NCBI GenBank assembly: GCA_013360465.1
Contig: JABWBO010000003.1
Location: 62,001 to 126,000 of the forward strand
Direction: 5' to 3'
DNA from: Anaerolineae bacterium
GTDB taxonomy: Bacteria; Chloroflexota; Anaerolineae; Aggregatilineales; Phototrophicaceae
DNA: 64,000 nt
Shown: one piece after another, positions 11,491 through 41,763 of the stretch
Layout: each line of letters opens with the position of its first letter
Position numbering within the stretch: position 1 is the stretch's first letter
Notes under the pieces: model-generated
Database searches by the model: none
Told to the model about the DNA's origin: nothing
The model's input: the letters and a program-made list of their open reading frames with translations, nothing else
Program-made: the position numbers and the translations under genes

Positions 11491-14067
11491 TCATCCGCTG
11501 GTCGGCAGGTTCACGGTGAAGACCGCCCCACCGCCGCCGGCTGTTGTAACGCCGATCTCACCGCCCACCCGCGTCACGACCTGTCGACAAATATAGAGTC
11601 CCAGTCCGGTCCCTTGCCCATGCGGCTTGGTGGTGAAAAAGGGTTCAAAGATAGTCTCCTGCATCTCATCGGGAATTCCTGGACCATTGTCGCTCACTTC
11701 TATCGTAACGCTGTTATGCGCCCGATCAACCATTACGGCGACTTCCACCCTGGGCTGCTGCCGCCCTACCAGTACATCGTGCGCATTGATCAACAAATTC
11801 AACCACACGTCGTCCAGTTCACCCTGCGGCGCAAGGACCGGCGGGACCGGCGCATCGGGCAGGTTCAGGACGAGCTGGATGGCGGATTTCTGAAAATACG
11901 AAAGGACCAGTGTGACCGTATCCTGTAGGGAAGCGACGATATCGACCGGAATACGCGGCGCATTTCCCGAATCTGGACGCGCGCTCGACAGCAGGCGGCG
12001 CACCACCCCGGTTGCCCGCTTTCCGGCGCGGACGATAGCGCTCACCGACTCGTATGCGCTGCTGCCCGGCTCCTGTTTGTCCAGCAGCAGTTCACCATCC
12101 AGGACGATGGTGGTCAGCGGATTGTTGATCTGGTGCGCCACCGCCGCCGCCAGCTCGCCCATCGCCGAAAGGCGCGCCGTCTGGACCAGCTTCGCTTGCG
12201 CCGCCTTGAGTTCGTGCAGGCTTTGTTCCAGATCTTCGACGAGCTGGGCATTGTCGATTGCCGTCCCCGCTTGACCAACTACTGCCTTGGCAAGATCGAT
12301 CTCGCGTTTGGTGAACACACGCGGACGCAGGTTGTCCACCATGACGGCAAGCCCCTGAAGCTGCCCACGCACCTTGACCGGCAAACCCAGCACCGCAAAG
12401 CCATAGGTCGCCTTGAGAATCGCCTGAACGGTGGGCGTCAGTTCGCCATCCTCGATGGAATAATTGAACGAGAAATTGTCCTGGAAAGGCACGGTCATAC
12501 CTGCTGAGCCAGCCTCTTCTCCATTCCACACCATCCCGCCGTAAGCATAACGAATGCGCAGTCCAGACCCTTCCTGATTCGTCACGCCAAACTCAATACG
12601 TTCTGCTTCCAGAAGCACGCGCAGATCGCCCAGGATGTTGAAGGCGTTGGTGCCGGTGCGTTCGCCGCTTCCGCCGATCAGCGTTTGGGAGCATTCATCC
12701 AGCGCACGCTGGGCGCGCTGCAAGCGCGCGCGGGTCAGCTTCGTCTCCGGTTCCTTCGCGCGATAAGCGATCAGCGCGCCAAACATGGTGTCGCCATACG
12801 CGACCGGCAGCAGCAGCGCATAGCCCGCGCCCACCCTCCGCAAGAACTGCACCTGAACCGGATCGAGTCGCTGGTCGCGGACCAGTTCGGTCACGCCATA
12901 GCGCTTCAAGCCTTCAGAGTCCCGCCTGCTCAGCGCAATAGTCTGTTCAGCGCCCGACCGCCAGCGTGCCTGAACGAATGTCGCCCGGCAGCGAAACATC
13001 TGGCGATCTGTCCCAACTTCGTAGATCTGGGCGCAGTGGACATTGAGGATTCGCCCTAAATGTTCACAGGCAGCGATCAAGGTTCGGTCCAGCGAGAGCG
13101 AGGCGTTGACCGACTGACTGGCATCCACCAGCCCTTTCAGCTCATTCGTCCGCCGAACGCTCTCTCCGTGAATACGCGCGTTGTTGATGGCGATGGCAGC
13201 ATACGAAGCCAGGTTGACCAGCAGCTCAAGATGGCGCTGGCTGAACGGCGTCGCTTTTTCGCGGTTCATCACCCCCAACACGCCCAGCGTCACCCCATTG
13301 AGCAGGATCGGCACATAGAGCAGCGCATTGGCGAAATATTCCGTCTTGATCTTCTGCGGACCCTGCGAACTGACCAGGACAGGCTGCCCGCTTGTGAAGA
13401 CATTGCCTGCCAGCGAGTCCTGCGTCCTGATGCGAAAGTTTTCGGCAGCCTTGGCGTCGATCCCGATCTTGGCGCGCAGATAAAGCTGCTCGGAATTCTC
13501 ATCCGGCAGGAGGATCATGCCCTCCTCGGCATTGGTCAGCCGGCGGGCTGCTTCGACCACACGATTGAGTACCTCGCTCAAATCCAGCACTTCGGTGAGC
13601 GACCGGCTGAGCGAAAACAGCGTCTTGATTTCGTCATCATGCCAGTGACCTGAAGGCGGCGGCTCGTCCGCCAGAGCAGGAGACGGGTCGACGAAAGGAA
13701 AGGTGCTGGGTTCGTAATGCGGGATGCGCAGCGCCGACATCAACGTCTGCCGCAGGGTGGCTTCATCCAGCCCAGTCAGCGGAACGTCGGAAAATGCCGA
13801 CGAGGTCGTCTCGCCATCGCCATAGACCAGCAGCGGCGGACGGGAACGGAGACGAGAGAGGATGGCAGCGCTGGATTCACCGGTCTCTGGTTGAGTCAGG
13901 CGTAGATCGATGATCGCCACAGAGAACGCCTCGTTATGCAGGTAGTACGCAGCATCGCGATGAGAATAACTGGCGACGACCGAGAAGCCGCGCCCATCCA
14001 CACCGCTGGCGATCTGTTGGATGAATTCAAGGTCGCCGCTGGCGACCAGCACTCTGCGCACAACCAT
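11491..14067 (-). CDS. Large GAF-domain sensor histidine kinase with degenerate N-terminal receiver
   Basis: The 858-residue soluble protein starts with a receiver-like fold (about 1-115) that keeps Asp54 in AIIDLRL but lacks the acidic pair (VASGD instead of DD) and the conserved Lys. Three GAF-type sensor domains follow (about 145-300, 310-465 and 475-615), the first with [11 protein letters not shown]. The kinase core is NtrB-like: AHQINNPL with phosphoacceptor His645, an N-box in [11 protein letters not shown]1 DNGPGIP and G2 GTGLGLYI. No membrane segment is present, so it probably senses a cytoplasmic small molecule or redox state. It is followed at 37 bases by a response regulator, its likely partner. 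Its start is 41 bases after the PspA-like gene. Confidence 0.9.
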
Positions 14068-28068: not shown

Positions 28069-30768
28069 ATGGGGTTCGATCTGGAGAATTTCGGCGTTGG
28101 TCTGCTCGCCGGATGGGCATCTGCCTACGGCGTGTACCGCGCGAGACATGTCATTCGAGGGACGGTAGATTCGTTTGGCAAGGGGGCGCAGCGTGTCCAG
28201 TATTCAGCGACGCGCAGTGCTGACAGCCGCTATATCCATGATCTCATCGAGCAGTGCGAGACCAGTCACCTGGCGGGAAAGCTGGTGAGACTGAGCGACA
28301 TCGTCGTCGAGCCACGCTTCCTGCCGCCAGAGGTGTTCACCGTACCACCGGACGACGAGCCTTACCCGTCGCCGTATAAAATCATCCCAAACATTCCAGA
28401 TCATCCTTATCTTCAGGCGCCTTTCAGCGTCGAGACGCTGTCCATCGACGATCTGGCGACCGGCAGCAATCGTATAGCGCTGCTGGGCTTGCCCGGCAGC
28501 GGGCGGACGACAGCGCTCATGACGATTGCGCTGCACAGCCTGGGACGTGTCAAGTTCCGTGCCACGCCAGACTCGGTTCAGCAGCGGCTTGACGCCGAGG
28601 AAGCAAAGCTGGCGGAAAAAGAGCGCGCAGTGCGCATCAAAGAACGCATCCTTATGGAAGAGCGCGCCAAAGAGCGGCTAGCCAGCGAAATCGGAACAAC
28701 CTACGAAACGCTCCAAAAAGCTGACGACGGTCAGGAATACATCCCCCTTTTCAATCGGCTGATGCCGGTCTACGTACACTTCGCCGATCTCAATCTGGCA
28801 TCCGGTGAGTTCAGCGGCGCGACCGACCCTGCCGAACCTGTCGTCAAGGCAATTCAGCATACCGTCCGCCGCGTCACCGCCAGCACCATCCCGCGCAACT
28901 TCTACAAGCGCATCTCGAGCGGGCAGGTACTCCTGCTGCTGGATGGCTTCGACGAGCTTCAGGAACATGAACAGGCTGCCGCCCTGGATTGGATTCGCGG
29001 CTTCACCGAACTGTATCCGCAGAACTTCGTAGTTGTCACTGGACCTGCGAGCGGATACTCCCAGCTCACGCGGATGGGGTTCACATCGGTGTTCCTGCGC
29101 CCCTGGAATGATCTCGACGCCGATGCTCTGGTCGCCCGTTTCAAGGATACCTGGAGCAAAATTGGTAAGGGACGACGCAAGGCAGTTAACGAGGAAGTGC
29201 TTCAGCGTGCCCACGCCAATAACCGCGCCTTGTCAACCACCGAAGTATTCCTGAAAGTCTGGACGAACTTCGCCGATGACGCGGATGCTGTGGGCGTCGT
29301 TGGCTGGTATCGGGCATTCCTCAAACGGCAGATGCAGAAGGGCGAAGATCAGACCGACGCGCTGGCGCAAATGGCGGCGCTTCAGCTTGATGAAGGATTC
29401 ATCTCGGCAGCCAGACTCCAGGCAATCGCGACGGGCAGCGCGTCGGATGTCGATCTGGCAGCGAGATCGCTGCTTCAGGATTCGCGCGACGGAATATCCA
29501 GGACAGAGGGTGAAGCGACAGCCGCCAAACCCGAAGAGGAGAAAAAGGACAGCGAGACGACCAGCGCCCAGGGTCGCCAGTTGGGGGCGCTGCGTCGTGC
29601 CGGCTTGCTTGTCCGTTTCCGTGGCGACCGCTACCGTTTCCGCTCAGGCATGTTGGCGTCGTATCTCGCCAGCCATACCCTGCGCAGCGCATCGCTCGAA
29701 ACGCTGAAAGCCAAGAACGGTTCACCCGCCTGGAACGCCGCCATAGCTTACTCAGCGCTGAGCCGCCCCTTGGACGATCTGGTCAAGGCGCTCATGAAGA
29801 CGCCCGCCGACCTGCTTAACGAGCAGTTGATCCGCATGGGGCGATGGCTGGCTTATGCCCCGAACGACGTCAAGTGGCGCGGCGTCGTCCTCAACGCACT
29901 GGGGGTGCAGTTCGTCGCCCCCAGTCAGTATCCCGTCGTACGTGAACGCACCGCCGCTGCATTAATCGACAGCCGGGACAGCAACATTCTGCTCGTGTTC
30001 CGCCGCGCCGTCCGAAACGCCTCACCAGACATCCGCCGGCTGGCGTGCCTGGCGATGGGAGCACTCGGCGACCCGGAAGGGCTGCGCGATCTGAAGCCGC
30101 TGATCGGCGATCACGACAGCGCCGTACAGCTGTCGGCGGGCATGGCGCTGGGCGCGGTTGGCAGTGACGAGGCGCTGGAAACGATGGTAATCGCGCTGAC
30201 CACTGGCACGGAACCGCTCCGCCAGGCGATGGCGGAAGCCTTTGCCGCGCTGCCGGATGAAGGCTTTCCAACGCTGTTTGACGCCATCCACGATAACGAC
30301 CTCATGCTGCGCCGTGCGGCAGTCTTCGGGCTGCGACGCATCCGTTCGACCTGGGCGCTGGTCGAAATTTATCGCGCCTTCCTGGAAGATGAGCAGTGGT
30401 ACGTGCGCTCGGCGGCGCAGCAGGCGTTCACCGAACTGCAATACGGGCGCACCGTCAGCATGACCACGCCCTATCCCCGTCCTGAGTCTATCGAGTGGCT
30501 GAAGGCGTGGGCTGGTCAGCGGGGTGAGACGCTGCCGCCAGGAGACAGCGCGGCGCACATGCTGCTGCGCGCCCTTCAAGAGGGAGACGCGGTAATCCGC
30601 GCGCTCGCCGCGCATGATATAGGCCAGCTGATGATGGTCGATATGATCAAGCCGCTCTACGGAGCGCTGCGCGATGCTCGCGATGAGGTGCGCACGGCTG
30701 CGCACCGCGCCCTCACGGAGTTTCAACTTCAGATGGGGCAGTCTCTGCCATCTCCAACCGCGCTCTAG
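28069..30768 (+). CDS. Membrane-anchored NACHT/STAND NTPase with HEAT repeats
   Basis: The 899-residue protein starts with a short hydrophobic segment (about 8-25, GVGLLAGWASAYGVY) that could anchor it in the membrane. A NACHT-type NTPase follows: Walker A GLPGSGRT at 140-147 and Walker B VLLLLDGFDEL around 287-297. Between them sits a charged coiled-coil insertion (about 168-208), which is unusual. VVVTGPASGY occupies the sensor-1 position, without the usual Arg. A Glu/Lys-rich linker lies near 475-505, and HEAT/PBS-lyase-like helical repeats fill about 600-890. STAND NTPases switch on oligomerisation and act in signalling, cell death or phage defence. The gene stands alone, divergent from the glycan cluster, with no obvious effector. 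Confidence 0.85.
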   Translation: MGFDLENFGVGLLAGWASAYGVYRARHVIRGTVDSFGKGAQRVQYSATRSADSRYIHDLIEQCETSHLAGKLVRLSDIVVEPRFLPPEVFTVPPDDEPYPSPYKIIPNIPDHPYLQAPFSVETLSIDDLATGSNRIALLGLPGSGRTTALMTIALHSLGRVKFRATPDSVQQRLDAEEAKLAEKERAVRIKERILMEERAKERLASEIGTTYETLQKADDGQEYIPLFNRLMPVYVHFADLNLASGEFSGATDPAEPVVKAIQHTVRRVTASTIPRNFYKRISSGQVLLLLDGFDELQEHEQAAALDWIRGFTELYPQNFVVVTGPASGYSQLTRMGFTSVFLRPWNDLDADALVARFKDTWSKIGKGRRKAVNEEVLQRAHANNRALSTTEVFLKVWTNFADDADAVGVVGWYRAFLKRQMQKGEDQTDALAQMAALQLDEGFISAARLQAIATGSASDVDLAARSLLQDSRDGISRTEGEATAAKPEEEKKDSETTSAQGRQLGALRRAGLLVRFRGDRYRFRSGMLASYLASHTLRSASLETLKAKNGSPAWNAAIAYSALSRPLDDLVKALMKTPADLLNEQLIRMGRWLAYAPNDVKWRGVVLNALGVQFVAPSQYPVVRERTAAALIDSRDSNILLVFRRAVRNASPDIRRLACLAMGALGDPEGLRDLKPLIGDHDSAVQLSAGMALGAVGSDEALETMVIALTTGTEPLRQAMAEAFAALPDEGFPTLFDAIHDNDLMLRRAAVFGLRRIRSTWALVEIYRAFLEDEQWYVRSAAQQAFTELQYGRTVSMTTPYPRPESIEWLKAWAGQRGETLPPGDSAAHMLLRALQEGDAVIRALAAHDIGQLMMVDMIKPLYGALRDARDEVRTAAHRALTEFQLQMGQSLPSPTAL

Positions 30769-33700: not shown

Positions 33701-33726
33701 TAACGACCTGTACCGTGCTTTTGCCA

Positions 33727-34449
33727 ATGACAACAGGCAGTAACGGACACGAACAGGAATTGGAACAAATTCGCGTGATGGTCGTCGATGATCATCCGCT
33801 GTTTCGAGACGGACTGGAAAAGACGCTGAGTATGGAAGACGACATCACCGTCGTCGGACAATGCAGTGACGGCGAAACAGCGCTCGACATGGCGCGCCAG
33901 CTCGCCCCAGATGTCATCGTCCTGGATGTAAATCTACCCTCGATGAATGGTCTGCTGGTGGCGCGGCAGCTTCGCGCCAGCCGCATGGACGTCGCCATCG
34001 TCGTACTGACGGCATATCACGACAATCAACAGCTGGTGCATGCCATGCGTTCCGGCGCATCGGCTTACTGCCCGAAAGACATCATGCCGGATGAACTCGT
34101 CCGCATCATCCGCGAAGTCGCAGACGGCTTCTATGTGGTGGGGGCGCAGACGCTTACCGTTCAGGAACTAGCAGCGTGGCTCAGTGCCGAAGTCGAACGT
34201 CTGGGCGGCTCCTACATCATCGACGCCGACGAACACTTCATCCCGCTCAGCCCGCGCGAACTTGAAATCCTTCAGTTCGTGACCAACGGCATGAGTAACA
34301 AGGAGATCGCCTACCAACTGCGCATCAGTCAGCAGACGGTCAAGAACCACATGACGTCTATTCTGAAGAAACTCAATGTTGAAGACCGGACGCAGGCGGC
34401 AGTCACAGCGCTGCGTCATGGCTGGGTCCGTTTGGATATGAAGGACTGA
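33727..34449 (+). CDS. NarL/DegU-family response regulator
   Basis: The 240-residue protein has a receiver with Asp21-Asp22, phosphoacceptor Asp67 in VIVLDVNLPSMNG, Thr95 and Lys117 in YCPKD. A longer linker follows, and then a LuxR-type helix-turn-helix (about 178-235) with LSPRELEILQFVTNGMSNKEIA and TVKNHMTSILKKLNVEDRTQA. It is followed after six bases by a DegS-like kinase. It stands upstream of the Tad pilus assembly genes on the same strand, so it is a candidate regulator of pilus expression (inference). Start choice is uncertain: ATG 33727 was taken over GTG 33715 because neither has a nearby ribosome site. Confidence 0.88.
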   Translation: MTTGSNGHEQELEQIRVMVVDDHPLFRDGLEKTLSMEDDITVVGQCSDGETALDMARQLAPDVIVLDVNLPSMNGLLVARQLRASRMDVAIVVLTAYHDNQQLVHAMRSGASAYCPKDIMPDELVRIIREVADGFYVVGAQTLTVQELAAWLSAEVERLGGSYIIDADEHFIPLSPRELEILQFVTNGMSNKEIAYQLRISQQTVKNHMTSILKKLNVEDRTQAAVTALRHGWVRLDMKD

Positions 34450-34455
34450 ACTATC

Positions 34456-35544
34456 ATGCAGGATCGAGATTTTCGTGCCGACCCGCGCGCACGTGATCAA
34501 CTCATAGACGTGCTAACTCAGGAACTCAAGCGTGTGCGCGACAAAATATCGGAATTCAAGGTGCAGATCGACCAGACGCAGACGATTGTTGACCGGGAAC
34601 AAACCCGCAACAACGACATCATGACCGAACTGCGTTCGGTTCAAGACAATATCGAGACGGTTCCCCGGCAGGACATCCGCCAGCGCTATAACGAAGCGCT
34701 TGAAGCTCGCTATCGCCTCCTGACGATGCGCGGACAGCTGGAGAAATTCGTCGGCATACGCGAGCAGTTGGAAACAGAACTGGCGATGCTGCGAGAAGTG
34801 CTGAACCGCCTTCAGGGTATTGAATCACTGCCTTCCGGCACCGGCGTCGTCGAGACCGAGACATCCGATGGCGGGCGCGGCAGTTTCAATATCGTCCGCA
34901 TCATCCAGGCGCAGGAAGAAGAACGTCAGCGCCTCGCCCGGCAGATGCATGACGGACCGGCGCAGTCGATGACCAACTTCATCCTGCAAGCAGAAATCTG
35001 TCAGAAGCTCTTTGACCGCAACCCGGCACGCGCCGCCGAAGAACTGGATAGTCTGAAGAACTCGGCGAACGTCACGTTTCAAAAGATCCGCGAGTTCATC
35101 TTCGATCTGCGCCCGATGATGCTCGACGATCTCGGCGTCCTGCCGACCGTGCGCCGCTACGTCGATTCGTTCCGCGAAAAGAACGACATGGACGTCAAGC
35201 TGGACATCTTCGGCGACGAACGGAGACTGCAATCGCACCGTGAAGTGCTGATCTTCCGCACCATCCAAGAACTGATGGCGCTGGCACGCGATTACGCCAC
35301 CCCGGAGCATCTCTCAGTTCGGCTGGATATCACCAACACCGCTGCAAAGATCGTGATCCAGGATGACGGACGGGGGTTCGACGCCGAAGCCGCATTTTCC
35401 AGTGAAGAAGGCAGTCACGATCCGCGCGTCCCCAGCCTGATCACCCTGCGTGAAAAGTTCGATCTGGTTCGCGGATCGTTGAGCGTGGAAAGCGGCGAAA
35501 ACGAGGGGATGACGGTCCGCGTCGAGCTGCCTCTGGAGGATTAA
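34456..35544 (+). CDS. DegS-like sensor histidine kinase with degenerate ATP-binding motifs
   Basis: The 362-residue soluble protein has a long N-terminal coiled coil (about 10-125), like DegS, then a HisKA_3 H-box EEERQRLARQMHDGPAQ with His165. The ATPase domain is odd. Where DegS-type kinases have QEALTNAxKHA this protein has QELMALARDYA, so the N-box Asn is Leu276 and the Lys-His pair is Asp-Tyr. The G1 box DDGRGFD is kept, but the G2 glycines are replaced by PSLITLREKF. ATP binding may therefore be weak or absent, and the protein could act as a phosphatase or scaffold (inference). It is co-transcribed with the response regulator upstream. Confidence 0.85.
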   Translation: MQDRDFRADPRARDQLIDVLTQELKRVRDKISEFKVQIDQTQTIVDREQTRNNDIMTELRSVQDNIETVPRQDIRQRYNEALEARYRLLTMRGQLEKFVGIREQLETELAMLREVLNRLQGIESLPSGTGVVETETSDGGRGSFNIVRIIQAQEEERQRLARQMHDGPAQSMTNFILQAEICQKLFDRNPARAAEELDSLKNSANVTFQKIREFIFDLRPMMLDDLGVLPTVRRYVDSFREKNDMDVKLDIFGDERRLQSHREVLIFRTIQELMALARDYATPEHLSVRLDITNTAAKIVIQDDGRGFDAEAAFSSEEGSHDPRVPSLITLREKFDLVRGSLSVESGENEGMTVRVELPLED

Positions 35545-35709
35545 ATCTTCGGTTCCAACTTTTCGAACAGGACAATAGCACTGTTTCGGAATTGTCAGAA
35601 TCGAAATACACTTATCGCAGCACATGCTCTATCAACCGGGTGAAGCCCGCTGCGAACCGTCATCGCCACGACTGGGGATGCGCTCACATCGGCACTCATG
35701 GGAGGACTT

Positions 35710-36843
35710 ATGGGACGTTTGCGTGTTTTTCTGATCATTGCCATCCTGATCGTTCTTGTAGCTGTTGTGGTCGTCTTGGTGCTGCCTTCACTGAACCAGC
35801 CACCCGTGTCGACCACAGCACCAAACGTTGCCGAAGTGCCAACGCAGGCTCCGGATGAACCGGAGGCAACACCGCTGCCAACCGCAACGCCTATCATCTT
35901 CGTCGATCTGGTGATCGCCGTTCAGGAACTCCCGCGCGGCATCATCATCCCGCCGAACGCAGTCGCGATTCGCCCCTGGCCCCAGGACGCTGCTCCCTTC
36001 AATGCGGTGACCAATGTCGAGGATGTCATCGGCAAACGTGCGCGCACCGACATCTTCCGCGAACAGCCTATCCTGAGCAACATGGTCGTCGAAGACCTGA
36101 CCAGCGCCGCCCGTGTTGGCTCCGACGCAGCAGCGGTCCTCCCGACCGGTCTGGTTGCGGTGTCGCTGCCCATTGACCGTCTGACCAGCATCGCCTACGC
36201 CCCGCAGGACGGCGACCGCGTTGATCTGATCATCTCCCTGCTTTACGTCGATGTTGACGAAGCCTTCCAGAGTATCACCCCCAACTCGATCACCCTCTTC
36301 AGGATCACCGACGAAGGTATCGAACTCCTGCAAGGCATTCAGGGGCGTGTCGACTCGACACAGTTGGGTCCGGTCATCGTCGGTCCTTCTGAGCGTCAGC
36401 GTCCCCGTCTGGTGACGCAGCGGACCATCCAGGATGCCCTGGTCGTCCATGTCGGCAACTTCCCGCCGGATGGGCGTTTCATCGGCGTCCCGCCGACCCC
36501 GACGCCGGTGCCCCAGGAAGGCGAAGAAGGCGAAGGCGGCACGCCGCCACCGCCCACCCCGACTCCGCCGCGCCCGGACATCATCACGCTGGGTGTTACG
36601 CCCCAGGAAGCGGTGGTCATCACCTGGTTGATCGAGGCGCGTGTGCCCGTCACGCTGGCGCTTCGCTCCGCTCAGGATACCTCGCGCACCAGTACAACGG
36701 AAGTGACCCTCGACTATGTGATGGCGCAGTACGGCATCACCTTGCCAGGGAAGCGTCCTTATGCGATTGAGCCGGCTATCCGCAGTATTCGCCAGATCCT
36801 TGCTTCGCAAGTGATCGATCTCAATCCAAACGCGGGCGGTTGA
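35710..36843 (+). CDS. cpaB: Tad pilus assembly protein CpaB/RcpC-like (SAF domain)
   Basis: The 377-residue protein begins with one membrane helix (about 3-24) and a Thr/Pro-rich spacer. A SAF domain follows (VIAVQELPRGIIIPPNAVAIRPW), with the later DIFREQPIL typical of CpaB. The C-terminal half has a second Pro/Thr linker with PTPTPP units and a beta-rich RcpC-like domain. In diderms this protein works with the secretin; here no secretin is visible, as expected for a monoderm. The start at 35710 was chosen because GGGAGGA lies between an upstream ATG and this one, in ideal position. It ends in NAGG. It is the first gene of the Tad assembly operon. Confidence 0.85.
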   Translation: MGRLRVFLIIAILIVLVAVVVVLVLPSLNQPPVSTTAPNVAEVPTQAPDEPEATPLPTATPIIFVDLVIAVQELPRGIIIPPNAVAIRPWPQDAAPFNAVTNVEDVIGKRARTDIFREQPILSNMVVEDLTSAARVGSDAAAVLPTGLVAVSLPIDRLTSIAYAPQDGDRVDLIISLLYVDVDEAFQSITPNSITLFRITDEGIELLQGIQGRVDSTQLGPVIVGPSERQRPRLVTQRTIQDALVVHVGNFPPDGRFIGVPPTPTPVPQEGEEGEGGTPPPPTPTPPRPDIITLGVTPQEAVVITWLIEARVPVTLALRSAQDTSRTSTTEVTLDYVMAQYGITLPGKRPYAIEPAIRSIRQILASQVIDLNPNAGG

Positions 36844-36882: not shown

Positions 36883-38211
36883 ATGCAGAACCGACAGGGT
36901 GGACAGAACGCAATTTCGGTCTTGATCGTCGATGATATCGCTGAAACGCGCGAGAATATCAAGAAGCTGCTCGCGTTCGAGGAACAGGAATTCCGTGTTG
37001 TAGGGTCTGTTGGCACTGGGCGAGATGCGATCAAAGCAGCTATCGAGACCAAGCCGGACATCATCATCATGGATATCAATATGCCGGATATGGACGGCAT
37101 CACGGCGACGGGCGAGATCACCAAGCGCCTCCCAACCGCTGCCGTCATCATGATGTCCGTCCAGACCGATGCCGACTACATGCGAAAAGCGATGCAGGCG
37201 GGCGCGCGCCAGTTCCTCGGCAAACCGATCGACACCGATGAGCTGTACAGCACCATCCGCGCCGTCTACAGAAGCTATGAATCGATCCGCAACCAGGCTA
37301 TCGCCATTCAGGACCTGCCGGTCGATGTTCGCAAGCCACAGCCGATGCAGGGCGAACCAGGCGTTCGCTCTGGTCATGTCATCGTCGTCTACAGCGCCCA
37401 GGGCGGCAGCGGCTGCACGACAGTCGCCACCAACCTCGCCTCAGGGCTGATGAAGAAGAATGTCCGCGTCCTGCTCGTCGACGCCGACTTGCAGTTTGGC
37501 GATGTTGGCGTCTTCCTGAAGCTTCAGTCGCAGTCTACGCTCCTCGATCTTGTTGGCAAAATCGACGACCTGGATACCGACTTTTTCGACAGCGTCGTCG
37601 CTACACATGACAGCGGTCTGAAGGTGCTGCTCGGACCGCTGCGTCCGGAATACGCCGAAGAGGTCGAGGCGGTCCCACAGGCTGTCTCGCGCATCATCGA
37701 GAAGATCGCCAACAACTACGATTTCGTCGTGGTCGATACCAGCCGCCGGGTGGATGAGCATCTGCTCTCGCTGACCGACGTCGCCACGAGAGTCATGCTC
37801 GTCGTCAATCCGACCCTGGCGGGAATCAAGAATACCAAATTCATCCTCGACCTGTTTGACCGCCTCAATTACACGCCAGACAAGTCGCTGCTCGTCCTGA
37901 ATCGCGTCGAAGATGAGCGGAGCCGCCAGCGAGTGACTATCGCCACCGAACAAATCGAGCGATTCCTAAGAAAACAGGTCTTCGCCAAGATTCCCGATGC
38001 CGAACGCGAGGTGTTGGGCGCGGTCATGAAAGGCGTTCCCATCGTCGCCTCTCGCGACCGGAGCAAATCGCCGGTCAAGGAATTCCTGGAAATGGCGGAT
38101 CACCTTTCAACCCTGCTGATCGGCGCGAGCGCTGGTGAAAGTGACAGCGGAGAAGGCGAAGAACGCAAGGCGCCGAAGAAAGCCGGCTTAGGACTGCTGG
38201 GTAGAAACTGA
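36883..38211 (+). CDS. cpaE: Tad pilus assembly ATPase CpaE/TadZ-like with receiver domain
   Basis: The 442-residue protein has an N-terminal receiver (about 10-130) with Asp17-Asp18, phosphoacceptor Asp64 in IIMDINMPDMDG, Ser92 and Lys114 in LGKPI, so it keeps the phosphorylation residues. A MinD/ParA-like ATPase domain follows with an atypical Walker A, QGGSGCTT (173-180), and LLVDADLQFGD. CpaE/TadZ proteins localise the pilus machine at the pole or membrane, and family members often have a non-canonical P-loop, as here. Many lack an active receiver, so this one may be phospho-controlled by a nearby kinase (inference). Confidence 0.9.
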   Translation: MQNRQGGQNAISVLIVDDIAETRENIKKLLAFEEQEFRVVGSVGTGRDAIKAAIETKPDIIIMDINMPDMDGITATGEITKRLPTAAVIMMSVQTDADYMRKAMQAGARQFLGKPIDTDELYSTIRAVYRSYESIRNQAIAIQDLPVDVRKPQPMQGEPGVRSGHVIVVYSAQGGSGCTTVATNLASGLMKKNVRVLLVDADLQFGDVGVFLKLQSQSTLLDLVGKIDDLDTDFFDSVVATHDSGLKVLLGPLRPEYAEEVEAVPQAVSRIIEKIANNYDFVVVDTSRRVDEHLLSLTDVATRVMLVVNPTLAGIKNTKFILDLFDRLNYTPDKSLLVLNRVEDERSRQRVTIATEQIERFLRKQVFAKIPDAEREVLGAVMKGVPIVASRDRSKSPVKEFLEMADHLSTLLIGASAGESDSGEGEERKAPKKAGLGLLGRN

Positions 38212-38273: not shown

Positions 38274-39731
38274 ATGTCGCTGCTAAAGCGTATCGAAAAA
38301 GGTGGGGGAGCGGCCGGGGGTGGCGGGAATGAACCGCCGCAGGGGGCGTCGTCTGGAAACGCCTTTGATGCGCCCTCTGGCGCGGAATTCTCTCAGGAAG
38401 AGTCTTCTCGTCTGTCGGCGATGCGGAATCGCACCCAGCAGGTTGCGGGGCGACCTCAGTCGCGCGAAAACGCCTATGTTGACCTGAAGTCGCGCGTGCA
38501 AACCCGCCTGCTTTCCGAGCTGGATCAGTCTACCGACCTGTCGCGAAAGTCTGAAGTGCGCGCCCACATCGAAGAGCTGTTCAACGCCATCCTCGCTGAA
38601 GAAAGCATGGTGCTGGCGCGTCAGGAACGGCAGCGCCTGTTTGAGACCATCGTCGCCGAAATCATGGGGTTCGGTCCCCTTGAACCTCTGCTCGCCGACG
38701 AAAGCATCACCGAAATCATGGTTAACGGACCCAAGAACATCTTCATCGAGCGTAAGGGCACGATCAACCGCGCGAATGTGACCTTCGAGGATGACGATCA
38801 CGTCCTGCGCATCCTCGACCGCATCGTCGCCCCACTCGGTCGCCGTATTGACGAAAGCTCGCCGATGGTGGACGCCCGTCTGCCCGATGGTTCGCGCGTG
38901 AACGCGGTCATTCGCCCAGTTTCTCTGGTCGGGCCAACCATCACGATCCGAAAATTCTTCAAGAAACCGCTGACCGTCGAGGACCTGATCAAGTTCGGAT
39001 CAGTCACCAAAGAGATCGTCGAATTCCTGCGCGCCTGCATCATCGCCCGCCTCAATCTCGTGGTCTCTGGCGGCACAGGTTCCGGCAAGACAACTCTCCT
39101 CAACGTGCTGTCAAGCTTCATTCCGAATAATGAACGCATCGTCACCATCGAGAACGCGGCAGAACTTCAGTTACGTCAGGAACACGTGGTCACCCTGGAG
39201 AGCCGCCCCGCCAATATCGAAGGGCGCGGCGCGATCACCATTCAGGACCTGGTCGTCAACTCGCTGCGTATGCGCCCGGACCGCATCATCGTCGGCGAAT
39301 GCCGTTCTGGCGAAGCGCTGGACATGCTCCAAGCGATGAACACCGGTCACGATGGGTCGATGACGACCGCCCACTCCAACAGCCCGCGCGATACGCTGGC
39401 GCGTCTTGAGGTGATGTGCCTGATGGCGGGTATGGATCTTCCCGTACGCGCCATTCGTGAGCAGGTCGCCAGCGCACTTGATCTGGTTGTGCATCAGGAA
39501 CGCCTGCGTGATGGTTCGCGTAAGGTCGTCAAGATCACCGAGGTGCAGGGCATGGAAGGCGACATGATCACCATGTCCGACATCTTCGAGTTCGAACAGA
39601 TCGGCGTCGAAGCAGGACGGATCATCGGACGCATTCGTCCGACCGGCATTCGCCCCAAGTTCACCGACCGCATTGAGGCAGCTGGCATCTATCTGCCGCC
39701 GTCGGTGTTCGGTCTCGGCAAATCATACTAG
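38274..39731 (+). CDS. cpaF: Tad pilus assembly ATPase CpaF/TadA
   Basis: The 485-residue secretion ATPase has an N-terminal Gly/Ser-rich disordered stretch (about 8-70), then the type II/IV secretion NTPase fold. VVSGGTGSGKTTLLN carries the Walker A Lys272. The Asp box lies in ERIVTIENAAELQL, and GHDGSMTTAHSNSPRDTLARLE includes the His box. It powers pilin polymerisation. The start has GGGGAG eight bases upstream. It sits 62 bases after cpaE and 78 before tadB, in standard order. Confidence 0.95.
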   Translation: MSLLKRIEKGGGAAGGGGNEPPQGASSGNAFDAPSGAEFSQEESSRLSAMRNRTQQVAGRPQSRENAYVDLKSRVQTRLLSELDQSTDLSRKSEVRAHIEELFNAILAEESMVLARQERQRLFETIVAEIMGFGPLEPLLADESITEIMVNGPKNIFIERKGTINRANVTFEDDDHVLRILDRIVAPLGRRIDESSPMVDARLPDGSRVNAVIRPVSLVGPTITIRKFFKKPLTVEDLIKFGSVTKEIVEFLRACIIARLNLVVSGGTGSGKTTLLNVLSSFIPNNERIVTIENAAELQLRQEHVVTLESRPANIEGRGAITIQDLVVNSLRMRPDRIIVGECRSGEALDMLQAMNTGHDGSMTTAHSNSPRDTLARLEVMCLMAGMDLPVRAIREQVASALDLVVHQERLRDGSRKVVKITEVQGMEGDMITMSDIFEFEQIGVEAGRIIGRIRPTGIRPKFTDRIEAAGIYLPPSVFGLGKSY

Positions 39732-39809: not shown

Positions 39810-40799
39810 ATGGATCCAATCCTCATCATCGGAATTGCTGTCGTCGCCGCGGTGTGCGTCATCATTTACGGCGTGATCAGCGTCCGCAGTGAGCGCGACA
39901 TCATCGAAGAACGCCTGGGACGCTACGACGAGCAGAATTCCTCCTTCTTACAGCTCGATGAAATCGTGGCGGAGGAGCCTGAGCAGTCGGTAACCAAGGA
40001 CAGTGCGCTGCGCGACCGACTCGATAACATCTTCGCCGAAAGGACCTTCGGCAAGCGCTGGCGCGCACAGCTGGCGCGCGCAGACCTGAAGCTGACCGTA
40101 TCAGAATATGCGGCGCTGCACGTCATCAGTACATTCGGTTTTTTTGGTGCGGGCTATTTCGTCCTGTTCGGTCAGCAGCTTGCTCCTGCCCTTTTGGCAG
40201 CCTTCGTCGGCTTCTTCGCTCCGCGAATCTACGTGGCGCGCCTCACTTCAACGCGCCTCATCCGTTTCGAGAATCAACTGCCCGACACGTTGGGGTTGTG
40301 GGTCAACGCGCTGCGCTCCGGTTACAGCGTCCTCCAGTCGATGGAAGCCATCGCACGCGACGCGCCAGAGCCAACCTCGACGGAGTTCAAGCGTGTTGTT
40401 CAGGAAGTTCAGCTGGGCATCGACATGGAAGATGGTCTGGCGCACCTGCTGACCCGAGTCGACAGCGAAGACCTGGACCTGGTCATCACGGCGGTCAACA
40501 TTCAGCGCGAAGTCGGCGGTAACCTTGCCGAGATTCTCGACGTGATCAGCCATACTATCCGCGAACGCATCAAGCTGAAGGGTGAAATCCGCGTCCTCAC
40601 CGCTCAAGGGCGCATCACCGGATACGTCATCAGCGGCTTGCCGATCATCCTGGGGCTCTTCCTGTATGGCATCAATCCAACTTACATGGGCAATCTGTTT
40701 GAAAATCGCGCGTGCGGCTGGCCCCTGTTGGGGATCGGTCTGGCGCTCATCGGCATCGGTTTCGCTGTCGTTCAGAAGATCGTAGACATCGACATCTAG
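39810..40799 (+). CDS. tadB: Tad pilus inner-membrane platform protein TadB
   Basis: The 329-residue protein has an N-terminal membrane helix, a soluble region, then the type II secretion F domain (about 165-290) with QLPDTLGLWVNALRSGYSVLQ and DLVITAVNIQREVGGNLAEIL, and membrane helices near 105-140 and 270-325. It forms the inner-membrane platform with TadC and is driven by CpaF. GAAGAGG precedes the ATG. It follows cpaF by 78 bases, with the hairpin between them, and precedes tadC by 16 bases. Confidence 0.93.
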   Translation: MDPILIIGIAVVAAVCVIIYGVISVRSERDIIEERLGRYDEQNSSFLQLDEIVAEEPEQSVTKDSALRDRLDNIFAERTFGKRWRAQLARADLKLTVSEYAALHVISTFGFFGAGYFVLFGQQLAPALLAAFVGFFAPRIYVARLTSTRLIRFENQLPDTLGLWVNALRSGYSVLQSMEAIARDAPEPTSTEFKRVVQEVQLGIDMEDGLAHLLTRVDSEDLDLVITAVNIQREVGGNLAEILDVISHTIRERIKLKGEIRVLTAQGRITGYVISGLPIILGLFLYGINPTYMGNLFENRACGWPLLGIGLALIGIGFAVVQKIVDIDI

Positions 40800-40815: not shown

Positions 40816-41763
40816 ATGGATCAATCGCTAATCGTCCTCGCCGTGATCGTCGTCGGCACAATCGTCTTCGTCGGTCTGATCTATGTCGGTCTGCGCGAAG
40901 ATCGCGGGCGCGACCCACTCCAGGAGCGTCTGGCGCAGTTCGAAGACAAGGAAATTCCGCAGTCGCTCGAAGAGATCGAAATGTCGCTTTCGTTCCGCGA
41001 CCGCGTCCTGCTGCCGATGATGAAAGCGCTTGCTCGATTGAGTACACGCTTCACACCGCAGAAACAGCTTGAAGAGACGCGACGGCAGATTGAGCTGGCG
41101 GGGATGAGCATGGACCCGGCAACGTTCTTCGCCGTCCGAATCATGGTCACCATCGCTTTCGCGCTGGGCGGTTTCTTCGTATTCTTCGTCGGCTCGCGCT
41201 CTACCCCTCCCGCGACTGCCCTGCTCTATACCATCGGACTCACCGCCCTCGGTTATGTCTTCCCGTTGATGTGGATTCAGAGCAAGATCAAGCGCCGCCA
41301 GGAAAACATCTGGAAAGCACTGCCAGACGCGCTTGATCTGCTGGTGATCTGCGTTGAGGCGGGTCTCGGCTTTGACATGGCGATGGGCAAGGTCTTCGAG
41401 AAATGGGATAACGAGCTGGCAATCGCCTTCGGTCGTGTGCTGCGCGAAATCCAGCTTGGTAAGCTGCGGCGCGACTCGCTGCGCGATATGGCGAACCGCA
41501 TGGATGTGCCCGACGTCACAGCCTTTGTCGCCGCCATTATCCAGGCGGATCAGCTCGGCGTCAGTATGGCGAAGATTCTGCGCGTGCAGGCTGACCAGAT
41601 GCGCGTGAAGCGCCGTCAGCGCGCCCAGGAAAAAGCCCATCAAGCGCCGGTCAAGATGATCTTCCCGATGGTCTTCCTGATCTTTCCATCGATCTGGATT
41701 GTGCTGCTGGGACCTTCTATCATCATCCTGCTGAACAGCGCTGAAGTGGGCGCGGTCTTTTAG
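40816..41763 (+). CDS. tadC: Tad pilus inner-membrane platform protein TadC
   Basis: The 315-residue protein has an N-terminal helix, two membrane helices near 105-150, a T2SSF domain (about 165-290) with ALPDALDLLVICVEAGLGFDMA and the QADQLGVSMAKILRVQAD segment, and a last membrane helix ending in GAVF. It pairs with TadB as the platform of the Tad system. AAGGTG lies eight bases before the ATG. It is the last clear pilus gene of the operon; ComF begins 21 bases later and may be co-transcribed. Confidence 0.93.
   Translation: MDQSLIVLAVIVVGTIVFVGLIYVGLREDRGRDPLQERLAQFEDKEIPQSLEEIEMSLSFRDRVLLPMMKALARLSTRFTPQKQLEETRRQIELAGMSMDPATFFAVRIMVTIAFALGGFFVFFVGSRSTPPATALLYTIGLTALGYVFPLMWIQSKIKRRQENIWKALPDALDLLVICVEAGLGFDMAMGKVFEKWDNELAIAFGRVLREIQLGKLRRDSLRDMANRMDVPDVTAFVAAIIQADQLGVSMAKILRVQADQMRVKRRQRAQEKAHQAPVKMIFPMVFLIFPSIWIVLLGPSIIILLNSAEVGAVF

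Follow-up and report, generated by a model that had tools for sequence, protein, structure and literature searches.

Few phosphotransferases derived from histidine kinases (HK) are named in the papers cited here: ChpT, Spo0B and PhyT. In the accessible part of its description, ChpT has the fold of a histidine kinase, does not autophosphorylate and has no bound nucleotide (PMC3433190), and PhyT is presented, in the part of the source available, as a protein with a degenerate ATPase domain that transfers phosphate (PMC5898713). For HisKA_3 proteins, the available text of PMC5231405 reports that the DesK phosphatase complex holds a nucleotide analogue in its CA domain, and that the phosphorylatable His is non-essential for the phosphatase action of NarX, the key residue being a Gln one turn later. 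For CpaE/TadZ from elsewhere, the available portion of PMC13170226 calls the receiver atypical and describes a deviant Walker A motif able to bind ATP for dimerisation. The literature that we searched, mostly papers available without subscription, contained no HisKA_3-derived phosphotransferase in a Tad operon, nor any published case of a ChpT analogue that derives from HisKA_3 proteins and has a pilus-localisation protein as its target.

A DegS-type pseudokinase heading a Tad pilus gene cluster

The window, i.e. the whole stretch of 64,000 nucleotides analyzed here (contig JABWBO010000003.1 of assembly GCA_013360465.1, positions 62,001 to 126,000), comes from an uncultured Chloroflexota (Anaerolineae bacterium). 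It contains a Tad pilus gene cluster headed by a gene for a DegS-type HisKA_3 pseudokinase (34456-35544, + strand, as are all features of the cluster given below), which encodes 362 aa from an ATG start, with no internal stops. The Pfam matches above cut-off were DegS (PF05384; aa 21-119, 30.3 bits against a cut-off of 27.6), HisKA_3 (PF07730; aa 156-221, 59.3 bits) and HATPase_c (aa 263-361, 31.4 bits, just above the cut-off of 26.4), with no ChpT family among them. The protein consists of a DegS-like N-terminal helical region (aa 10-119, 34483-34812), a highly conserved DHp domain (aa 156-221, 34921-35118) and a degenerate CA domain of the Bergerat fold (aa 263-361, 35242-35538). Its AlphaFold2 model (mean pLDDT 84.4) has two long N-terminal helices (aa 10-64 and 71-119), the DHp helices and a mixed CA domain; the 10-residue means of pLDDT are mostly 88-95 over aa 260-360, and lower around the lid. 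Among the matches listed, the best solved structure was the CA domain of VraS (Z 18.6, rmsd 2.4, 133 residues), so the CA fold is predicted to be kept. ChpT and Spo0B were not among the structure matches listed for this model, from which no exclusion follows.

An earlier note on this sequence had described a kinase with intact H-box and G1 box and broken ATP-binding motifs otherwise, and the translation agrees. As in HisKA_3 homologues, the DHp domain carries an H-box His (QMHDGPAQ; His165, the predicted phosphorylation site, 34948-34950), followed by Asp166 and by Gln170, the Gln of the HisKA_3 phosphatase-type motif HDxxxQ. The G1 box (QDDGRGFD; D303-D309, 35362-35382) retains the DxGxG of active kinases (D303-G305-G307). 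Two other sequence features of active kinases are missing. The N-box, IQELMALARDYA, has Leu276 at the Asn position (35281-35283), and Asp279-Tyr280 stands where Lys/Arg-His is expected (35290-35295); in the G2 segment, PRVPSLITLREK, the GxG of the ATP lid is Val-Pro-Ser (aa 325-327, 35428-35436), with Ser327 at the lid glycine.

As controls we took 10 HisKA_3 paralogues encoded by the window's own genome, in which 12 other matches had been found (two were left out). Asn276, Asp303, Gly305, Gly307 and Gly327 are each present in all ten, and position 279 is Arg, Lys or His in all ten. No gap was found that could have displaced the Asn, which makes its loss genuine. The note had also reported the G2 glycines as lost; Gly325 occurs in only two of the ten paralogues, so that only Gly327 is informative within the GxG, and the first glycine carries less weight. 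An alignment or frame artefact was ruled out, since there is no gap and the loss spans a clade, and sequencing error was ruled out, since the letters are the same in L031, an orthologue of 99% identity, and orthologues of 67-70% identity (L032-L035) also lack the Asn. Private decay of a single gene was ruled out as well, with a match at E<=1e-40 in 39 of 41 genomes, the window's own genome included.

The gene order of the orthologous loci is RR-HK-cpaB-cpaE-cpaF-tadB-tadC, all on the same strand in the window. The response regulator (33715-34449) is of the NarL/LuxR type (Response_reg 96.8 bits, GerE 80.9 bits) and is separated from the pseudokinase start by a 6-nt gap; its phosphoacceptor site is complete (D25, D26, D71, T99 and K121), as the note had held. 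Downstream of the pseudokinase are a CpaB/RcpC-like SAF-domain protein (35698-36843; SAF 32.7 bits, RcpC 26.0 bits, below the cut-off of 28.8), CpaE/TadZ with a receiver and a MinD-like ATPase domain (36883-38211; Response_reg 98.4 bits, AAA_31 53.0 bits), the motor ATPase CpaF/TadA (38274-39731; T2SSE 216 bits) and the TadB-like (39810-40799) and TadC-like (40816-41763) platform proteins, these two named by operon position and with homologues at the same place in other loci. The receiver of CpaE is intact (D17, D18, D64, S92 and K114), and in its ATPase domain the signature Lys of the deviant Walker A motif (QGGSGCTT) is replaced in the alignment by Gln173 (37399-37401). Elsewhere in the window, we observed an 899-aa protein (28069-30768) with a weak NACHT-like segment (22.1 bits, cut-off 26.7) and C-terminal HEAT repeats, and two more HATPase_c matches, at about 406-726 and at 11500-11817 (-), with receiver matches nearby.

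Loss of ATP-site residues across the family

The main count set comprises 159 loci. The best 80 of 460 relatives were taken from a scan of named genomes, and 79 came from the phylum, of which 251 genomes were searched with a profile; 80 of them had a match at E<=1e-60, the 80th being the window genome. Loci L001-L030 were left out. This sampling combines best matches with an even draw over the phylum and is no census, and almost all loci are from metagenome assemblies. The 159 loci include 158 distinct DHp+CA cores, with no pair of at least 97% identity between the two sets and near-copies remaining within them. We scored five residues at the ATP site (Asn276, Asp303, Gly305, Gly307 and Gly327), and distinguished clade A, the clade of the window (51 rows, including the window and L031), the neighbouring clade B (21 rows), six transitional rows, and an f9-like group of 17 rows (15 of family code f9, one of f12, plus L109).

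In clade A, Asn276 is present in 7/51 rows, a basic residue at 279 in 0/51 and Gly327 in 19/51; Asp303 and Gly305 are kept in all 51 and Gly307 in 46. Since the adenine-side Asp303 is retained throughout, these proteins may still bind nucleotide. Clade B has lost Asp303 in 21/21 rows (His in 11, Phe in 8, Ser and Asn in one each), and has Asn276 in 8/21 and Gly327 in 18/21; the AlphaFold2 model of a member is poorer (mean pLDDT 77.8), but its elements follow one another as in the window protein. Over seven scored ATP-site positions, Gly305 is the only one that is kinase-like throughout both clades. Outside them, Asn276, Asp303 and Gly327 are present in all 17 f9-like rows and in all 52 other members from the phylum. 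A distant third group (L203, L205, L206, L207, L210 and L213) has Glu276, Glu279, Ser or Thr at 303 and a lid of reduced length. L170, within the f9-like clade, is degenerate on its own. The sequences give strong support to the pseudokinase proposed in the note, throughout two clades and again elsewhere.

Position 279 is Asp or Glu in every row of clade A (51/51), clade B (21/21) and the transitional set (6/6), a swap common to all three; it is Arg or Lys in 17/17 f9-like rows and 44/52 other phylum members, so a basic residue is not universal among intact members. We take this residue to contact the ATP phosphates, as in other kinases such as PhoQ. The rest of the motif residues persist in the transitional rows (Gly327 in 5/6), which may still be kinases. 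Taken together, the counts suggest that charge reversal at 279 came first, followed by loss of the Asn and of the lid glycine in clade A and of Asp303 in clade B. On these residues, ATP-driven autophosphorylation has very probably been lost in both clades.

With the motif columns excluded from tree building, six changes of state are needed to account for the degenerate sequences. The branch figures are 100 for clade A, 98 for clade B and 100 for the third group, all starred. The tree is a quick one, with long control branches and three controls that do not fall on one side of a branch, and clade A, clade B and some of the transitional rows meet at an open fork, so that the two clades may have lost their ATP site in one event or in two.

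All five scored residues are kept in 30 of 99 loci linked to tad genes, in 46 of the 51 loci whose stretch shows no tad genes, and in 5 of 9 loci with short downstream sequence. The 30 intact tad-linked loci consist of 26 outside clades A and B, three transitional ones and L054, the only clade A row with all five residues (Asp at 279). With these 30 loci, tad linkage was ruled out as the cause of degeneration.

Conservation of the DHp domain and of the receivers

The H-box HD is present in 157 of the 159 loci, the exceptions being L202 (Gln for His) and L228 (no Asp). His165, Asp166 and Gln170 are invariant in the 78 rows of clade A (51/51), clade B (21/21) and the transitional set (6/6), and in 71/71 after thinning at 95% identity. 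Mean pairwise identity of the DHp domain (aa 146-240 for clade A) is 0.844 in clade A and 0.854 in clade B, and 0.824, 0.826 and 0.800 in the kinase groups with intact sites (f9-like, Chfx and Deh, the last two being our own labels for family codes). Identity at the seven ATP-site positions is 0.743 in clade A and 0.516 in clade B, against 0.966, 0.988 and 1.0 in the same three groups. Judged from these sequences, the constraint on the DHp domain is unchanged while the ATP site degenerated. The invariance of both His165 and Gln170 suggests selection for phosphate transfer in addition to dephosphorylation. The third group keeps the His in 6/6 members, next to a regulator that has Glu for the acceptor Asp in 5/6, and the unlinked CpaE receiver in these genomes is intact; conservation of the His alone is thus no proof of transfer to the neighbour.

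The remark of the earlier note that CpaE, encoded downstream, also has an intact receiver proved its most useful one, as this receiver is the invariant companion of the kinase. The acceptor Asp (Asp64 in the window, 37072-37074), the Ser and the Lys are present in 96 of 96 loci with CpaE near the kinase, the window and L031 included. Mean identity of the CpaE receiver is 0.729 within clade A and 0.740 within clade B, versus 0.602 and 0.634 for the receiver of the regulator. In nine tad-linked loci whose family kinase is intact, there is no receiver besides that of CpaE in up to about 4 kb on each side (1.4 kb upstream in L209). In 16 genomes where the family gene is unlinked (six of the third group and ten chosen others), the best CpaE receiver is intact in all 16. 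As a control, we searched for CpaE in 20 genomes (the first 20 of 171) that had given no kinase match at E<=1e-60. Eleven matched; the best match was an ordinary regulator in four and a CpaE-like protein in seven. Among these seven, some of which may be paralogues, the receiver is intact in G046, arguable in G041 (Glu-Glu, Asp, Thr, Lys) and broken in five. With one or two of seven intact, receiver integrity is not proof of partnership.

The regulator is less constant. Its acceptor Asp is present in 65 of the 67 degenerate-kinase rows that have a regulator (the third group excluded), the exceptions being L103, with Ala instead, and L058, which is cut by the contig end. In L102 the acidic pocket is broken, and the match carries a stop codon. 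In L100 and L105 the operon lacks the regulator, and the rest of the genome offers only 41-42% matches, so a relay between the receivers of CpaE and the regulator cannot fully explain these two loci.

Unexpectedly, CpaE itself has lost a residue of its nucleotide site. The signature Walker A Lys is kept in 10/10 f9-like loci, 16/16 other loci and 3/4 transitional ones, and in only 1/46 loci of clade A and 0/18 of clade B; in L170 it is Arg. In the f9-like loci, where the kinase looks intact, the second Lys (that of the P-loop) has already been replaced in 10/10, which makes their CpaE unusual as well. Most of the remaining nucleotide-site residues are retained: three of the four Asp columns and the majority of the Gly residues of the P-loop, the first of which is Ala in 7/18 loci of clade B. 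The state of the kinase and that of the CpaE Lys agree in 85 of 88 rows (57 with both lost, 28 with both kept), and three are discordant (L063, L081 and L085). Going by these alignments, the loss of the signature Lys coincides with that of the kinase ATP site in clades A and B; a paired test of co-loss had only two independent pairs on starred branches, with which significance is unreachable.

Candidate roles and related systems

We propose that the protein is a pseudokinase derived from a histidine kinase that would be unable to phosphorylate itself with ATP, and whose DHp His165, beside Asp166 and Gln170, would still accept phosphate. Transfer could then proceed independently of ATP, in the way of ChpT, Spo0B and PhyT, and Gln170 would add dephosphorylation of the receivers. 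The constant partner of this predicted dimer would be the receiver of CpaE, the localisation ATPase of the Tad pilus, with which it presumably interacts; the second, where present, would be the adjacent NarL-type regulator. Input to the helical N-terminal region would decide whether phosphate is relayed between the receivers, in a direction likewise predicted, or lost to water, a switch that would tie the state of the pilus machine to transcription. We give about even chances to such an ATP-independent histidine phosphotransferase with phosphatase capacity, acting on the CpaE receiver and on the regulator where there is one. The phosphate would come from a kinase or from a small molecule; with 108 HATPase_c and 128 receiver matches, the window genome has many possible donors.

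A dedicated phosphatase, among the functions suggested in the note, would only dephosphorylate CpaE~P and/or the regulator through Gln170, with the His kept for structure. It would explain why Gln170 is invariant (78/78), would work with a single receiver, as in the regulator-less L100 and L105, and is compatible with the third group, where the His is kept beside a regulator without the acceptor Asp in 5/6 members. The available text on HisKA_3 proteins also has phosphatase action needing the Gln and not the His (PMC5231405). By that same account the His, as invariant here as the Gln, is dispensable in NarX phosphatase action, and the DesK phosphatase complex holds a nucleotide analogue (PMC5231405, in the part available), which clade B, without Asp303, could hardly bind. 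We regard a pure phosphatase as rather unlikely.

Another alternative is an active kinase of a non-canonical kind, which would bind ATP or another nucleotide without the Asn and the Lys and continue to autophosphorylate. The predicted CA fold is intact (Z 18.6 to VraS; pLDDT mostly 88-95), and clade A keeps D303 and G305 in 51/51 rows and G307 in 46/51. However, the window protein combines charge reversal at 279 with the loss of Asn276 and Gly327, and clade B has lost Asp303 in 21/21, leaving Gly305 as the only one of the seven positions kept in both clades. We consider such a kinase improbable.

Second DegS-like kinases (HK2) occur in the phylum across the regulator from the family kinase (HK1), in L096, L153, L199, L228 and the six third-group loci; L176 and L202 also have an HK2. 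In the third group, the ATP site of HK1 is lost and that of HK2 intact (6 loci). Mirror-image losses were observed as well: the HK2 of L096 (L096:4174-5136) and of L153 (L153:5808-6548) has Glu or Ser for the H-box His next to a kinase with intact motifs, the HK2 of L153 having also lost its N-box. The tad-linked L202 keeps the five ATP-site residues and has Gln for the H-box His, and its HK2 neighbour (in L280) is intact.

Such HK2-RR-HK1 arrays, with partial losses in either partner, make trans-acting pairs plausible in the phylum, and to that extent favour the heterodimer raised in the earlier note, in which an intact partner kinase would carry out the ATP chemistry in trans on His165. A profile search detected no HK2-level match, among the matches listed, in the window genome or in 31 relatives of its order: the best was 6.3e-60 or weaker, that of the window genome (1.3e-46) being the family protein itself, against 2.0e-89 to 3.0e-162 where a true HK2 is present (five genomes, including three that had supplied profile rows). 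We found no companion kinase dedicated to the protein in the window genome. One HisKA_3 kinase with intact motifs is an orphan (L230; G000:C84:239000-248000); its GAF and membrane parts were judged by eye. Of 42 genomes tested, 37 have a match to it at E<=1e-60, and its ATP site is intact in 20/20 tested genomes of the order. The 8.5-9.2 kb stretches around it contain no receiver in 10/10 genomes, in a search run with a positive control. It is only 31% identical to the window protein and differs at DHp residues that we take to determine specificity; as a phosphate donor it may be regarded as a lead only, weakened by these differences, and a heterodimer seems to us quite unlikely.

Very improbable, finally, is a non-catalytic scaffold or decaying relic, whose DHp domain would only bind receivers while the ATP sites of kinase and CpaE erode under relaxed selection: loss of the CpaE signature Walker A Lys in the same clades, the broken regulator receivers of L102 and L103 and the missing regulators of L100 and L105 would fit, but the catalytic residues of the DHp domain and of the CpaE receiver are invariant, and mere binding would not require the acceptor Asp and the Lys in 96/96 loci.

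Returning to the phosphotransferase with phosphatase capacity, a wider possibility, which we put forward tentatively and hold to be less likely than not, is that in two Anaerolineae-type clades of Chloroflexota the Tad signalling core gave up ATP at two points together, in the kinase and in CpaE, and that CpaE is controlled there by receiver phosphorylation through the pseudokinase and not by its own ATP cycle. The proposed role of the pseudokinase also predicts that the CpaE/TadZ receiver is genuinely phosphorylated in Chloroflexota; if true, this would offer a direct handle on the control of the Tad pilus. The family also allows kinase-like species and clades without an ATP site to be compared within one HisKA_3 lineage of nearly constant DHp domain, a natural experiment on the passage from kinase to relay or phosphatase, with the order of residue losses along it.

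The window protein shares with HisKA_3 (HPK7) kinases of the DegS, DesK and VraS type the HisKA_3 DHp domain, the HDxxxQ motif, the CA fold, a DegS-like N-terminus and an adjacent NarL-type regulator. Unlike them, it lacks the N-box Asn, the Lys/Arg-His pair and the lid glycine, it heads a tad operon, and a second receiver is present in CpaE. DivL of Caulobacter, compared by description only and as far as that description goes, is alike in having lost kinase output and having been repurposed as a sensor of a response regulator. DivL is not known to have a phosphorylatable His, which the window protein keeps. To our knowledge, neither PhyT/PhyP nor Spo0B is a HisKA_3 protein or tied to a pilus ATPase.

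ChpT and PhyT would be the nearest working analogues. In the accessible description (PMC3433190), Caulobacter ChpT has a dimer fold derived from a histidine kinase and a conserved His, and its ATP-like domain plays no part in autophosphorylation; the same is proposed here, with the dimer predicted. The ChpT lid consists of helix turns that close the pocket (PMC3433190, in the part available), whereas the window model is closest to HisKA_3 CA domains; the window protein also keeps its N-terminal helices, and the DHp family and the partners differ. PhyT/PhyP of Sphingomonas and, as cited in the same source, Spo0B of Bacillus are degenerate histidine kinases described as phosphotransferases, like the proposal made here; by the text available, PhyT differs in being membrane-anchored and in having an HRxxN motif (PMC5898713). 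TadZ/CpaE of other phyla has, in the available account, the same combination of receiver-like and MinD/ParA-like domains and the same role in Tad localisation; the receiver of Eubacterium rectale TadZ is described there as atypical (PMC13170226), whereas the receiver site of the proteins studied here is canonical in 96/96 linked loci.
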